Shown: positions 15,548-25,058 of the stretch, piece after piece | How the letters are laid out: each line of letters opens with the position of its first letter | Numbering within the stretch: position 1 is the stretch's first letter | NCBI GenBank assembly: GCA_017481225.1 | Contig: JAFUPM010000095.1 | Span: forward strand, 1-34,451 | Direction of reading: 5' to 3' | From: Clostridia bacterium | GTDB lineage: Bacteria; Bacillota; Clostridia; Oscillospirales; CAG-272 | DNA length: 34,451 nt | Translations under genes and position numbers: made by a program | Notes under the pieces: model-generated | Seen by the model: only the letters and a program-made list of their open reading frames with translations | Databases searched by the model: none | Told to the model about the DNA's origin: nothing

Positions 15548-15679
15548 TGTTCACATATGGTGGGTATTAGTGCATAATAATTCGCATATTTAGCATATTT
15601 ACCCGTTTATTATTGGTTTTATTTGTGTTTTCACAGTTTCACACTGCGCAAAATAAATTTATTAGAATGGAGAATCACC

Positions 15680-16609
15680 ATGAAAAAGATTATCTCTCTC
15701 GTACTCGCACTCGTAATGTGCCTTGGAACCTGCGTAGCAGTCACTTCCTGCTCATCCGATGCTGACTACACCGTAGGCGTGTGCCAGCTTATGGCTCACG
15801 AATCCCTCGACCAGGCTACCAAGGGCTTTAAGGACGCTATTGTTGCTGAGCTTGAGAAGGCCGGCAAGACCGTCGATATCGACGTTCAGATTCCCGCCGA
15901 TATGTCTCTTTGCTCTACTGTAGTTGACTCCTTCGTTTCCAAGGACGTTGACCTCATTTTGGCTAATGCGACCCCCGCGCTTACCGCTGCGGCTTACGCA
16001 ACTACCACCATTCCCGTTCTCGGCACCTCTGTTACCGACTACGAGTCCACCTTCAGCGGCAACGTTCCCGCTAACGTTTCCGGTACCTCCGACGCCGTTC
16101 CCTTCGACGAGCAGGCACAGATGATGATTGATACCCTCGGTCTTACCACCGCAAGCAAGGTTGGCGTTATCTACTGCGCAAACGAGTCTAACTCCCTTAT
16201 CCAGTTCAACGCTGTTAAGGATTACTTCGCAACCAAGGGCATCACAAACGTTACCGCCTACACCTTCTCTAACACCAACGAGCTTCAGGCTGTAGTTACC
16301 TCTGCGGCAGCAGCAAGCGATGCTATCTACATTCCCTCCGACAACACCGTTGCTAACAACGACACCATAGTAGGCACTATCTGCTCCGAGCAGAATATTC
16401 CCGTTTACACAAGCTACGCATCAGCTATCTGCTACGCGAGCCTTGCTATCGACTACTACCAGCTCGGCTACGAGACCGGTAAGATGGCAGCCGAGATTCT
16501 CCTTGGCAACAAGACCCCCGCTGATATCGAGGTTATGACTATCACTCCTACCGTTGTATATAACGAGGAGATTTGCGAGTCTCTCGGCATCACCGTTCCC
16601 GAGAACTGA
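15680..16609 (+). CDS. ABC transporter substrate-binding lipoprotein (TrpX/ABC_sub_bind type)
   Basis: 309 aa from the ATG at 15680 (GGAG 8 bases upstream). An in-frame ATG at 15623 precedes any site. The signal peptide ends in lipobox VTSC (Cys24). The mature part has the two-lobe periplasmic-binding fold of the ABC_sub_bind family. Recognisable segments are VGVCQLMAHESLDQATKGF near the start, GTSVTD and VGVIYCANESNS in the middle, and AAEILLGNKTPADIEV near the end. Family members bind tryptophan or other amino acids and small ligands, but the ligand is not set by sequence alone. It is followed by its permease and ATPase, forming a complete three-gene importer. Confidence 0.9.
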   Translation: MKKIISLVLALVMCLGTCVAVTSCSSDADYTVGVCQLMAHESLDQATKGFKDAIVAELEKAGKTVDIDVQIPADMSLCSTVVDSFVSKDVDLILANATPALTAAAYATTTIPVLGTSVTDYESTFSGNVPANVSGTSDAVPFDEQAQMMIDTLGLTTASKVGVIYCANESNSLIQFNAVKDYFATKGITNVTAYTFSNTNELQAVVTSAAAASDAIYIPSDNTVANNDTIVGTICSEQNIPVYTSYASAICYASLAIDYYQLGYETGKMAAEILLGNKTPADIEVMTITPTVVYNEEICESLGITVPEN

Positions 16610-16645
16610 TAGAGCTTTTTATTAAAATAAAGGACAACTTTTTCT

Positions 16646-17614
16646 ATGGCATTTTTGAACGCTTTACCGGGTGCTGTAGCGCAGGGCCTTATCTGGGGTC
16701 TGGTGGCTATCGGTATCTACATATCTTATAAGATACTCGATATTGCAGACCTCTCGGTTGACGGCTCTTTCGCAACCGGAGCCTGTATATGTGTCGTTGC
16801 TATTGCAAACGGCGTGCCCGTGTGGCTGAGTATAATTCTTTCCTTCCTTGCGGGTGCTGTTGCAGGCGCGGTTACGGGACTTCTTCATACAGCTCTCGGT
16901 GTTCCGTCAATTCTCGCAGGAATTCTGACACAGCTGAGCCTTTATTCCATAAATCTTCAGCTGATAATGGGTGGAAGGTCCAACTTCCCCTTCTCGTCAA
17001 TCCCCTTCTATACGGGTAACACCGACTTTACACCCGATTCGCTTCTTCTCAGAATGAGCGACAAGGTCGCATCTATTATCGTTCCCCTTCTTTTCGTGGC
17101 AGCGGTAATCGTGTTGCTTTGGCTCTTCTTCTACACCGAGATTGGACTTACCATCAAGTCCACGGGTGATAACCCTGCAATGAGTAAGGCGCAGGGTGTA
17201 AACATCAATTTAAATAAGGTAATAGGACTTGCTATATCCAACGGTATCGTTGCCCTCGCAGGCGCGCTGCTCGCCCAGTACCAGGGCTTCGCAGACGTTA
17301 CTATGGGTACGGGAGCTATCGTTATAGGTCTTGCCGCTATCTTTATCGGTCTGTCGGTTTCCTTGAAGATTAAGCCCAATTTCGTCGTTTCTCTTATAGG
17401 CGTTGTGGGCGGCTCTATAGTTTATTACGTTATCTTCACTGTAGTAATGCTCCTCGGACTTCATACCAACTATCTGAAGCTGCTTTCGGCTATGATAGTA
17501 GCTATATTCCTCGCGGTTCCTTACTTAAAGAAGGAGTACTTCTCCAAGCGCAAGCACCAGAGGGTGTCGGTAGCTGTGGAAAGCGAGAGTGAGGGAGGTG
17601 ACGCCGATGCTTAA
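16646..17614 (+). CDS. ABC transporter permease (BPD_transp_2 family)
   Basis: 322 aa, very hydrophobic, about eight to nine membrane segments, with the DLSVDGSFATGA stretch (about 37-48) characteristic of TrpY-type permeases. The cytoplasmic STGDNPAMSKAQGVN loop (about 173-187) is the expected ATPase-coupling region. AAAGGA lies about 10 bases before the ATG. It sits 36 bases after the binding-protein gene and overlaps the ATPase gene by 8. A charged hydrophilic tail ends the protein. Only one permease gene is present, so the channel is presumably a homodimer. Confidence 0.92.
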   Translation: MAFLNALPGAVAQGLIWGLVAIGIYISYKILDIADLSVDGSFATGACICVVAIANGVPVWLSIILSFLAGAVAGAVTGLLHTALGVPSILAGILTQLSLYSINLQLIMGGRSNFPFSSIPFYTGNTDFTPDSLLLRMSDKVASIIVPLLFVAAVIVLLWLFFYTEIGLTIKSTGDNPAMSKAQGVNINLNKVIGLAISNGIVALAGALLAQYQGFADVTMGTGAIVIGLAAIFIGLSVSLKIKPNFVVSLIGVVGGSIVYYVIFTVVMLLGLHTNYLKLLSAMIVAIFLAVPYLKKEYFSKRKHQRVSVAVESESEGGDADA

Positions 17615-18404
17615 GATTTCAGGACTCGAGAAAACCTTTAACCCCGGCACCGTTAATGCAAAAACTGCCCTTGCAGGTCTTGACCTCTACCTTGAGGACG
17701 GAGATTTCGTTACCGTCATAGGCGGTAACGGCGCAGGAAAGTCCACACTTTTAAATGCTATTGCAGGCGTTTGGAAGCCCGATTTCGGTAAAATAGAGCT
17801 TGACGGCTTGGATATTACGGGTATGCCCGAGCATAAAAGAGCAAAGTTCTTAGGTAGAGTATTCCAGGACCCTATGATGGGTACTGCTCCCGATATGGAA
17901 ATTGCCGAGAATCTTGCCATCGCCGCAAGGCGCGGCACTAAACGCCGCTTCGTCTGGGGTATCAAGAAGGGCGAAAGAGAAAGATATAAGGAGCTGCTTG
18001 CTACTCTGGAGCTTGGTCTGGAGTCGCGTCTTACCTCAAAGGTTGGACTGCTCTCGGGCGGTCAGCGCCAGGCTGTAACGCTTCTTATGGCAACACTTAA
18101 CCGTCCGAAGCTTCTGCTTCTCGACGAGCATACCGCAGCCCTTGACCCCAAGACTGCCTCCAAGGTGCTTAAGCTTACCGACAAAATAGTCTCCGAAAAT
18201 AAGCTTACAACTCTTATGATTACCCACAATATGCACGACGCTATTGCCTATGGCAACAGGCTGATTATGATGCACGAGGGCAGAGTTGTTGTTGACGTTT
18301 CGGGCGAGGAAAAGAAAAAGCTGACAATAGAGCAGCTTCTTCAGCTCTTCGAGCAATCCAGCGGCTCCAAGTTCGGCAGCGATAAGGCAATTCTTTCAAA
18401 ATAA
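17607..18404 (+). CDS. ABC transporter ATP-binding protein
   Basis: 265 aa from the ATG at 17607, served by GGGAGG about 8 bases upstream. An alternative GTG at 17589 is less well placed. Walker A is GGNGAGKST (39-47), the Q-loop Gln is at 87, the signature LSGGQ at 149-153, Walker B LLLLDE (169-174), and the H-loop His at 207 (ITHN). Walker B ends in DEH rather than DEP, as is seen in TrpZ-type ATPases. All catalytic residues are present. It is the last gene of the importer operon and is followed by a strong hairpin at 18424. Confidence 0.95.
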   Translation: MLKISGLEKTFNPGTVNAKTALAGLDLYLEDGDFVTVIGGNGAGKSTLLNAIAGVWKPDFGKIELDGLDITGMPEHKRAKFLGRVFQDPMMGTAPDMEIAENLAIAARRGTKRRFVWGIKKGERERYKELLATLELGLESRLTSKVGLLSGGQRQAVTLLMATLNRPKLLLLDEHTAALDPKTASKVLKLTDKIVSENKLTTLMITHNMHDAIAYGNRLIMMHEGRVVVDVSGEEKKKLTIEQLLQLFEQSSGSKFGSDKAILSK

Positions 18405-22258: not shown

Positions 22259-22378
22259 TACTTTGTCTTAAAAACTCTCTAAAGTTTCCTTTTATACTAT
22301 ATATACTATACAAAGCAAAGTTGAATAAAAACGCCCCCGCCGAACCGTAAAAAAATTCAAGGAATTTTTGAAAAGGTA

Positions 22379-22407
22379 TTGACAAGCGCATAATTTCGTG
22401 CTAGAAT
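22379..22407 (+). promoter_or_regulatory. Promoter of the T-box leader
   Basis: TTGACA (22379-22384), 17-base spacer, TAGAAT (22402-22407). Transcription should begin near 22414, immediately ahead of the T-box stem I. Confidence 0.8.
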
Positions 22408-22413
22408 GTAGGC

Positions 22414-22702
22414 AAATTTGAATATCACAAAAACGACTATGATGAAGACGGTTGGACTTTGAAGCTTCACAGAGAGTTGTCGGACGGTGCGAGACAATAG
22501 CTGAATTTTCCGTATGACCTATCACTTCTGAGTCGGAGGACCGAAAGGCTCGGGCTGAGTAGACTCCTTCCGTAATGCTGCGTAAAAGCAAAGGGCTTGT
22601 TAGAGCTCGAAAAGTGGCGGAGATAAAATTTCCGCAATTTGAGTGGTACCGCGGGTTATACAACTCGTCTCAAGAGGTTTCTTTTGAGGCGGGTTTTTGT
22701 TT
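22414..22702 (+). promoter_or_regulatory. T-box riboswitch, probable isoleucine specifier AUC
   Basis: Stem I base: CGACT (22434-22438) pairs with AGTCG (22531-22535), and ACGG (22448-22451) with CCGT (22510-22513). The conserved AGAGAG is at 22471-22476. The 3' side of the specifier bulge reads GACCT-ATC-ACTTC-TGAG (22516-22532). Aligned with known T-boxes (GAA, one or two bases, specifier, a purine, then about four bases before UGAG), the specifier is ATC (Ile) at 22521-22523. TAT (Tyr) one to two bases earlier is the main alternative but would be followed by C. The T-box sequence GAGTGGTACCGCGG (22641-22654) carries the UGGU bulge that pairs with tRNA ACCA. It precedes an intrinsic terminator and then the acyl-CoA synthetase gene. 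Confidence 0.92.
22664..22702 (+). terminator. T-box attenuator terminator
   Basis: CTCGTCTCAA (22664-22673) pairs with TTGAGGCGGG (22684-22693), 10 bp with two G-U pairs, followed by TTTTTGTTTT. It is mutually exclusive with the antiterminator around the UGGU bulge just upstream. Confidence 0.85.
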
Positions 22703-22754
22703 TATTCAAATTCGTAACCATTAAGCAAAATGTCAGGAGCGAAAGGAGACGGAA

Positions 22755-25058
22755 ATGGATTACAGTTTGAAAGAGGTCGCAGGCAGAATTAAGGCGCTGC
22801 GAGAAGCAAAGGGATACACACAGGAGCAGCTTGCTAAGCTTACGGGTGTATCGGTTGAGGAATACCGTGTATTGGAGCAGGGTGGCACCGATTTCAGCTT
22901 TACCTTTATTTATAAGTGCGCCAAGGCTTGCGACGTCGAGGTCGTTGACCTTCTCGAGGGACGAAGCACGACCCTCACCTCCTTTGCCATCACGAGAAAG
23001 GGCGAGGGCTTGAAGATTTTAAAGCAGCACGGCGTTGAGTACAACAACCTTGCCCCCAAGTTTAAGGAAAAGCTCGCCGAGCCCTTCCTCGTTAAGTTCC
23101 CCTATATCCCCGAGGAGCAGGACGCGCCTATCAAGCTAAGCTCTCATAACGGTCAGGAGTTTGACGTTATCGTCAAGGGCTCGCTTAAGGTACAGGTCGG
23201 CGGTCACGTGGACGTTCTTAACGAAGGAGATTCCATATTCTACAACAGCTTGATTCCTCACGGTATGATAGCGGTAAGCGAGGGCGGCTGTGAGTTCCAC
23301 GCCGTTGTTCTTAACCCCCAGGACGGACTTGTCAGCGAGGAGTATCCCGAGGTCGAGTACGTTGCTCCCAAGGCCGTGGAGGTCGTCAATACCGCCTCGA
23401 CGGTTGCGGATAACTTCATCGAGTCCTTCTACGACGATAAGGGAGTATTTTGCGGCATCAAGTTCAAAAACGAGGATAAGTTCAACTTTGCCTTCGACTG
23501 CGTTGACGCTATAGCCGAGAAGACCCCCGACAAGCTGGCTATGATGTGGGTAGCAAATGACAAAACCGACAGAAGATTCACCTTCAGCGATATGAAAAAG
23601 TACTCGGCAAAGACCGCAAACTACTTTGAATCTCTCGGTATCAAAAAGGGCGACACCGTTATGCTCGTCCTCAAGCGTCATTACCAGTTCTGGTTCTGTA
23701 TGCTGGCTCTTCACAAGATTGGTGCTATCGCTATCCCCGCAACCAACCAGCTCGTAGAGCACGATTTCGATTACAGATATAAGGCGGCGAAGGTTAAGGC
23801 TATCGTTTGTACAGCCGACGGTGACGTATCCTTGGAGGCTGAAAAGGCTGCGGCAAATTATCCCGGTATGCTTAAGATTCTCGTCGGCGGAGAAAAAGAG
23901 GGCTGGCACAACTTCAACGTTGAAATGGAACGCTTCAGCACCCATTATTACCGCACCGAAAGCTCTCCTTGCGGTAACGAGCCTATGCTGATGCTCTTTA
24001 CCTCGGGTACGACGGGCTACCCCCGCATTGCAACCCATTCCTACAAATACGCCTTAGGTCACTATCCTACCGCGAAGCATTGGCACAACGTAAATTCTAA
24101 CGGACTTCACTTCACTATCTCTGATACCGGTTGGGGTAAGGCTCTTTGGGGTAAGCTCTACGGTCAGTGGCTCTGCGAGGCGGCGCAGTTTACCTACGAC
24201 TTCGACAGATTCCACTCGGAGGACATTCTGCCGATGTTCGCAAAATATCACATCACCACCTTCTGCGCACCCCCCACGATGTACAGATTCTTCATCAAGG
24301 AGGACCTGTCCAAGTACGACCTTTCCTCTATCGAATATGCAACCACGGCAGGCGAGGCGCTGAACCCCGAGGTGTTCAATCAGTTCAAGAAGGCAACGGG
24401 GCTTACCATTATGGAAGGCTTCGGACAGACCGAGACAACCCTTTCTATTGCAAACTTCGTCGGCTCTACTCCCAAAATTGGCTCTATGGGTAAACCCAGC
24501 CCTCTTTACGACGTCGTTATTCTCGACCCCGACGGAAACGAGTGTAAAACCGGTGACACGGGTGAGATTTGTATCCGCGTAAAGGACGGCGAGGCTCCCT
24601 GCGGTCTGTTCATCGGCTATTATCTCGACGAAGAAAAGACTAGGGAGGTTTGGCACGACGGCTTCTATCACACAGGCGACCAGGCTACCATGGACGAGGA
24701 CGGCTACCTCTGGTACGTCGGACGTATCGACGACGTTATCAAATCCTCCGGTTACCGCATCGGCCCGTTTGAGATTGAAAGCGTTATTATGGAGCTTCCT
24801 TACGTTCTCGAGTGCGCAATAACTCCCGTTCCCGACGAGGTTCGCGGTCAGATAGTAAAGGCGACTGTGGTGCTTGTAAAGGGTACGGAAAAAACCGACG
24901 CGCTGAAAAAGGAAATCCAGGAATACGTAAAGACACATACCGCGCCTTACAAATATCCCAGAATCGTTGAATTTGTAGATGAGCTTCCCAAGACCATAAG
25001 CGGTAAGGTAAGGCGTGTTGAAATTCGCAAAAACGATATGCAAAAAATGCAGAAGTAA
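22755..25058 (+). CDS. XRE HTH-cupin-acyl-CoA synthetase fusion (medium-chain/branched acyl-CoA ligase type)
   Basis: 767 aa with AAAGGAG before the ATG. Residues about 5-68 are an XRE-type helix-turn-helix (GYTQEQLAKLTGVS). About 110-187 form a cupin barrel. About 235-760 are an ANL-superfamily adenylate-forming enzyme with P-loop TSGTTGYPR (416-424, Arg in place of the usual Lys), GFGQTET (555-561), TGD (640-642), hinge GRIDDVIKSSGYRIGP (656-671) and catalytic Lys751 in the SGKVRR segment. The DTGWGKALWGKLYGQW segment (457-472) places it with medium-chain acyl-CoA synthetases, which accept branched and aromatic acids. All catalytic residues are present. A T-box leader controls it. My inference is a branched-chain acid such as 2-methylbutyrate as substrate. 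The HTH may autoregulate. Confidence 0.9.
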   Translation: MDYSLKEVAGRIKALREAKGYTQEQLAKLTGVSVEEYRVLEQGGTDFSFTFIYKCAKACDVEVVDLLEGRSTTLTSFAITRKGEGLKILKQHGVEYNNLAPKFKEKLAEPFLVKFPYIPEEQDAPIKLSSHNGQEFDVIVKGSLKVQVGGHVDVLNEGDSIFYNSLIPHGMIAVSEGGCEFHAVVLNPQDGLVSEEYPEVEYVAPKAVEVVNTASTVADNFIESFYDDKGVFCGIKFKNEDKFNFAFDCVDAIAEKTPDKLAMMWVANDKTDRRFTFSDMKKYSAKTANYFESLGIKKGDTVMLVLKRHYQFWFCMLALHKIGAIAIPATNQLVEHDFDYRYKAAKVKAIVCTADGDVSLEAEKAAANYPGMLKILVGGEKEGWHNFNVEMERFSTHYYRTESSPCGNEPMLMLFTSGTTGYPRIATHSYKYALGHYPTAKHWHNVNSNGLHFTISDTGWGKALWGKLYGQWLCEAAQFTYDFDRFHSEDILPMFAKYHITTFCAPPTMYRFFIKEDLSKYDLSSIEYATTAGEALNPEVFNQFKKATGLTIMEGFGQTETTLSIANFVGSTPKIGSMGKPSPLYDVVILDPDGNECKTGDTGEICIRVKDGEAPCGLFIGYYLDEEKTREVWHDGFYHTGDQATMDEDGYLWYVGRIDDVIKSSGYRIGPFEIESVIMELPYVLECAITPVPDEVRGQIVKATVVLVKGTEKTDALKKEIQEYVKTHTAPYKYPRIVEFVDELPKTISGKVRRVEIRKNDMQKMQK

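Follow-up and report, generated by a model that had tools for sequence, protein, structure and literature searches.

In a 34,451-nucleotide stretch of DNA, hereafter the window, a T-box leader with an isoleucine specifier precedes a gene for an acyl-CoA synthetase that is fused to a helix-turn-helix (HTH) domain and a cupin domain. The source of the window is probably a Clostridia bacterium of the gut (GenBank assembly GCA_017481225.1, contig JAFUPM010000095.1, positions 1 to 34,451). T-boxes switch on when their amino acid is short, and the leader, the protein and the gene contexts of its relatives make it likely that this gene encodes an isoleucine-starvation-induced enzyme acting as the entry step of isoleucine synthesis from 2-methylbutyrate. 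The features of the locus are:

22379..22407, + strand: promoter-like site, TTGACA-17-TAGAAT with TG ahead of the second hexamer (consensus scan, 11/12 matches), by itself no evidence of function.
22414..22424, + strand: highly conserved AAATTTGAATA by the predicted transcript start, complement of 22703-22713 (pair counts, 76 leaders).
22430..22675, + strand: T-box leader (RF00230; full-length model match, 88.8 bits, E 4.6e-20).
22521..22523, + strand: specifier codon AUC (isoleucine), from the Rfam alignment; ATC in 77/77 aligned leaders.
22641..22653, + strand: antiterminator T-box core GAGTGGTACCGCG, with the UGGU bulge at 22644-22647; core exact in 74/80 orthologous loci and in the window.
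22662..22695, + strand: intrinsic-terminator-like stem, then a T run.
22703..22713, + strand: TATTCAAATTC, complement of the element at 22414 (pair counts).
22755..25058, + strand: HTH-cupin-acyl-CoA synthetase fusion of 767 amino acids (aa) (Pfam; 3etc is the closest solved structure).
24135..24149, + strand: codons Gly461 to Trp465; Trp465 aligns with Trp259 of MacsMa, which we take 3etc to be (hand-made residue mapping).

The initial annotation, made from the sequence alone, had placed an apparently complete isoleucine-type T-box and its fusion gene at 22414 to 25058; these limits are correct, with 22414 lying just 3' of the promoter-like site. Covariance-model search (cmscan of 22300-22800) matched RF00230 over its full length (model positions 1-219). 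In the Rfam alignment the AUC falls in the codon position of stem I, and the specifier columns were invariant among the aligned leaders of 76 orthologous loci and the window (L023, L026, L030 and L076, at contig ends, were left out), which confirms the isoleucine reading; the specifier is that of a branched-chain amino acid, not the non-branched-chain codon that had been named as speaking against the proposal. The shifted readings UAU and UCA were dropped because the columns flanking ATC vary (preceding base C or T; following base A, C or G). The TGGNACCGCG core was found exactly upstream of 74 of the 80 orthologs as well as in the window, and with two mismatches allowed it was missing only at L023, where the locus holds just 2 upstream bases. 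The terminator-like stem and its T run are present ahead of the gene. All 80 orthologous loci are on Clostridia-type contigs of metagenome-assembled genomes, and the host, where named, is a ruminant.

The leader is flanked on its two sides by complementary elements, AAATTTGAATA and TATTCAAATT (22414-22424 and 22703-22713). Each of their eight inner positions pairs in 69 to 75 of the 76 leaders, partly via G-U. They might act as an operator for the HTH part or, as RNA, form a helix closing the leader. Among the paralog T-boxes checked, a similar flanking motif was found only at L208 and L209.

The domain architecture proposed earlier is borne out by Pfam, with HTH_3 (residues 12-65), Cupin_2 (128-184), AMP-binding (252-610; 190.4 bits, cut-off 29.9) and AMP-binding_C (673-751; 79.6 bits, cut-off 24.5) all over their cut-offs. 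Unfused HTH-cupin/ligase gene pairs exist among the relatives, and the fusion thus looks like a joined regulator-enzyme pair. The closest solved structure, 3etc (E 3.6e-198), matches the ligase part only (chain residues 48-578 of 580). We take 3etc to be MacsMa of Methanosarcina acetivorans, as the residue numbers agree once a hand-derived offset of 23 is applied. In the alignment with 3etc, MacsMa Trp259 falls opposite Trp465 of the window protein, and the pocket tryptophan is hence conserved; the pocket glycine of 3etc, presumably residue 351, also aligns with the window protein. MacsMa is archaeal, unlike the window protein, and shares similarity with its ligase part only. MacsMa is described as favouring 2-methylbutyrate, with Trp259 critical (PMC10455477). 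The window enzyme probably activates 2-methylbutyrate too.

The top NCBIfam model was MbcS (NF047394). MbcS of Staphylococcus aureus activates 2-methylbutyrate and isobutyrate and serves fatty-acid synthesis (PMC10026030). The ligase might likewise supply 2-methylbutyryl-CoA to FabH as a primer of anteiso fatty acids, with the T-box sensing a shortage of the primer source, and the monocistronic arrangement of the window gene, which stands alone, would fit such a role. This alternative is unlikely given the operons and gene content of the relatives described below, where paralogs share operons with a 2-oxoacid:ferredoxin oxidoreductase (VOR) and an aminotransferase, ilv genes tend to be missing where the ligase is present, and Leu T-boxes of the same clusters precede LeuA-like genes. 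Primer supply and the isoleucine route could also operate together.

Gene-context analysis of the relatives links the ligase to branched-chain amino acid synthesis. Several relatives carry tandem fusions, the first behind an AUC and the second behind a GUA (valine) T-box, followed by genes for a P-loop nucleoside triphosphatase (NTPase), VorB, VorA and VorC, and some of these operons add a branched-chain aminotransferase (475 and 490.7 bits, cut-off 307). The operon VorA and VorC match the beta and gamma models of 2-oxoacid:ferredoxin oxidoreductase under their cut-offs; for L131 and L187, the names of the operon proteins come from NCBIfam models. Among 81 loci, four contained two ligases together with the NTPase, VorB, VorA, VorC and the aminotransferase on one strand, 61 had a single ligase with none of the NTPase, Vor or aminotransferase neighbours on its strand, and the remaining 16 were partial or lacked a ligase open reading frame (ORF); at L217, L222 and L223 the ORF picker returned no ligase ORF.

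The specifiers in these 81 loci divide according to their targets. T-boxes before ligases or their HTH-cupin partners numbered 67 (42 AUC, 24 GUA and one unclear), with 39 AUC and 24 GUA before ligase ORFs and 3 AUC before the HTH-cupin genes of unfused pairs; 12 T-boxes with CUC or CUU (leucine) preceded LeuA-like genes, and 2 T-boxes had no assignment, one of them being that of L221, counted above as unclear. The fused ligases (n=73) account for 39 AUC and 24 GUA, and the unfused ones (n=19) for 3 AUC, the T-box of L221 and 15 without a core found by the pattern search. Specifiers were aligned with Rfam for L134, L187 and L130 (AUC, GUA and CUC), L186 (AUC and GUA), L133, L178 and L184 (AUC), and L193 and L205 (GUA), and the other specifiers of the tally, save those aligned for L221 and for the window's own genome, were read from the pattern alone. 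Where the pattern gave two candidates, as in six T-boxes (L134, L130, L178, L184, L193 and L205), the one within ATC/GTA/CTC/CTT was taken, and the Rfam alignment agrees for all six. The pattern reading CTA of L133 was dropped and the AUC of the Rfam alignment used instead; the pattern match at L234 is TTT, with no assigned target. In the window-type loci, a LeuA-like gene was present in 15/80 and a LeuA partner fusion in 17/80, counted within the retrieved flanks, many of them short.

On the reading we favour, a shortage of isoleucine would place uncharged tRNA-Ile on the AUC T-box, the terminator would be avoided, and the ligase would be made. 2-methylbutyrate, plausibly released by the amino-acid fermentation of other gut microbes, would be converted by the ligase into 2-methylbutyryl-CoA, which VorBAC could reductively carboxylate to 3-methyl-2-oxopentanoate, and a branched-chain aminotransferase would then form isoleucine. 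Paralogs behind valine (GUA) T-boxes would make valine from isobutyrate by the same scheme, and the Leu T-boxes would govern LeuA, which would extend 2-oxoisovalerate towards leucine. The activation of 2-methylbutyrate and its reductive carboxylation to isoleucine had been suggested in the initial annotation, and the suggestion gains support from the paralog operons with VorBAC and branched-chain aminotransferase, from the set of ligases with valine specifiers, from the nearest structure, taken as MacsMa, and from the lack of ilvC, ilvD and ilvA in most ligase-bearing genomes, with 2-methylbutyrate as the presumed substrate.

We compared 67 genomes of at least 91% completeness, 40 with the ligase and 27 without, which were chosen before ilv and VorB were looked up and are not a random sample. 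Genomes counted as ligase-negative had no match with the N-terminal part, or none at E <= 1e-150, and more distant ligases may therefore be present in them. Ketol-acid reductoisomerase (ilvC) was found in 5/40 genomes with the ligase, whereas 21/27 genomes without it carried the gene (p 8e-8), and the counts over cut-off were the same for ilvD (5/40 versus 21/27) and similar for ilvA (4/40 versus 16/27). VorB, in contrast, was over its cut-off in 40/40 genomes with the ligase and in 5/27 without. Counting by family majority gave 0/21 versus 15/20 for ilvC and 21/21 versus 5/20 for VorB. Because ilvC, ilvD and ilvA are rare and VorB is universal there, most of the tested genomes with the ligase are without the usual pathway to isoleucine and valine (no search for citramalate synthase was made), and the same genomes own an enzyme that could form 2-oxoacids from acyl-CoA. 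A family member at E <= 1e-150 occurs in 141/293 genomes of a sample of the class.

These gene contents also bear on the direction of the pathway. VOR enzymes of other anaerobes act in peptide fermentation, and VOR might here oxidise 2-oxoacids to acyl-CoA, with the ligase running in reverse for ATP gain. Such a catabolic role is very improbable, as a T-box activates its gene under shortage of the amino acid and most of the tested genomes with the ligase have no canonical biosynthetic genes.

To relate ligase type to specifier, 40 Ile-specifier and 24 Val-specifier fused ligases were compared. The best separating column was residue 461, four before Trp465, with glycine in 38/40 Ile-type and alanine in 24/24 Val-type sequences, and the fourth-best was residue 464, with leucine in 39/40 Ile-type versus 3/24 Val-type sequences. 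Both residues are near the pocket tryptophan, and 3etc has glycine at the position of residue 461, as does the window protein. The main substrate might instead be isobutyrate, isovalerate, or a straight short-chain or aryl acid, since MbcS also takes isobutyrate (PMC10026030) and MacsMa turns many acids into adenylates (PMC10455477). We regard this as quite improbable, in that the Ile and Val specifiers divide the paralogs, the Val set has bulkier residues near the pocket tryptophan, and the window protein has the glycine of 3etc at that place. The Val label takes 3 changes on the tree, and an independent-pairs test was not significant, with too few pairs.

The genome that the window belongs to (G000) is 63.5% complete, and because of this it was left out of the 40/27 comparison. 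It has VorB, and ilvC, ilvD and ilvA gave no match. A second copy of the fusion, also behind an AUC T-box, lies on its contig C86 in the order T-box (AUC), ligase paralog, P-loop NTPase, VorB (544.8 bits, cut-off 399) and VorA, truncated after its start by the contig end; a divergent Leu T-box before a LeuA-like gene is on the same contig. The Ile-type ligase of a VOR operon was not found in this 63.5% complete genome, and its role may be filled by the window copy. The window ligase is best seen as the Ile-type ligase of a route that turns branched acids into branched-chain amino acids, with its gene located away from the VOR operon. For control T-boxes of the same genome, Rfam alignment gave the specifier GUC at valS, UGG at trpB (419.5 bits, cut-off 392), AUG at an O-acetylhomoserine sulfhydrylase gene with metA behind it, and CUU at a LeuA-like gene, each T-box lying ahead of its target; in a relative (G261), a T-box before ilvA was read as ATC from the pattern.

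Several observations weigh against this interpretation. The leader scores below the Rfam gathering score of 93, and a whole-window scan at that score therefore showed no T-box; the T-boxes before valS (82.2) and the sulfhydrylase-metA pair (81.9) in the same genome are likewise under it. With 451.7 bits, the protein falls far under the MbcS equivalog cut-off of 850 and is therefore related to MbcS, not filed as MbcS. The window gene is monocistronic, the VOR genes detected in its genome sit on another contig, and the branched-chain aminotransferase NF009897 was not found in this genome at 63.5% completeness. Both ilvC and ilvD are kept in 5/40 ligase-bearing genomes. The pattern search found no T-box core at 10/73 fused ligases. 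Nor did it find a T-box preceding the VOR genes at 20 VOR loci drawn from other genomes with the ligase; in two of these loci (L242 and L247) the ORF picker missed VorB. At L221 (L221:1068-1295), the T-box preceding an unfused HTH-cupin/ligase pair has CAG (glutamine) aligned at the specifier position; AUC lies two bases upstream, and the pattern gave no reading.

The link between specifier and residue 461 is also incomplete. The second and third best columns (748 and 438) are elsewhere in the sequence and do not flank Trp465. Among 29 rows outside both fused sets, 16 have alanine and 13 glycine at residue 461, with alanine in L233 (unfused, AUC T-box), and residue 461 alone cannot tell the ligase type because both residues are common there. 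G000 (L089:3698-6413) and G001 each have a Val-type ligase with Ala461 behind an AUC T-box, which demonstrates that specifier and ligase type can part; these exceptions cluster with the second genes of tandem pairs. With a single origin of the Val group not rejected (p-AU 0.25), independent residue shifts are few, and repeated convergence is not claimed.

The leader resembles the T-boxes of ileS, ilv operons and amino-acid transporters (RF00230) in having a specifier, a UGGN antiterminator bulge and a terminator, but differs from them in its target, an acyl-CoA synthetase. By term search, 'acyl-CoA' is absent from the main text of three T-box papers (PMC2494555, PMC3766115 and PMC7778990), and the term T-box from the main text of the MbcS paper (PMC10026030). 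Among the matches listed for open-licence PubMed Central papers, the titles and abstract starts gave no report of a T-box on acyl-CoA synthetases or VOR, and nothing on this system under T-box surveys, HTH-cupin fusion, MbcS or branched-acid use. The overall conversion is known from rumen bacteria, in which reductive carboxylation of branched volatile fatty acids (Allison, Robinson and Peel) forms isoleucine from 2-methylbutyrate and valine from isobutyrate, with work of 1966 and 1971 on rumen anaerobes making branched-chain amino acids from isoacids, all as cited in the available part of PMC7356843. Unlike for the window system, the rumen account in that part of PMC7356843 names no genes, activating ligase or regulation.

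If the assignment is right, acid-activating ligases would be added to T-box regulons as a new target class. The specifier would tell which end product a given ligase serves, so that candidate entry-step genes can be put to a direct test, and the arrangement would provide a marker, readable from the genome, of bacteria that may rely on branched acids produced by other organisms. More tentatively, and with less than even confidence, branched-acid scavenging might have replaced canonical branched-chain synthesis in many gut Clostridia, with the Ile, Val and Leu specifiers predicting step and substrate. The HTH-cupin part might then be a second regulator, making the protein a trigger enzyme responsive to the acid or the corresponding CoA ester, in a two-signal gate where the tRNA reports that the amino acid is needed and the acid that it is available.

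Further genes and T-boxes were observed near these systems. A fusion of AP_endonuc_2 (xylose-isomerase-like TIM barrel) with a FadD-like AMP-binding part follows LeuA-like genes behind Leu T-boxes (L131:888-3353, L187:12487-14400 and L089:3-1856) and is possibly an isovalerate ligase. The P-loop NTPase (CbiA/ParA-like; L089:6407-7150 and relatives) lies near VorB in 10/10 VorB loci of one set and in 16/18 VorB loci among those from other ligase-bearing genomes. Two more T-boxes of the window's own genome, both on the minus strand, have the probable specifiers UAC (tyrosine), by a contig end (L006, G000:C53:490-759), and GCA (alanine), before an Lrp-like regulator and an aminotransferase (L004, G000:C25:3078-3337). 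In the window itself, a TrpX-type ABC transporter at 15623-18404 consists of a substrate-binding protein (NF041285, 183 bits, cut-off 390), a permease and an ATPase.

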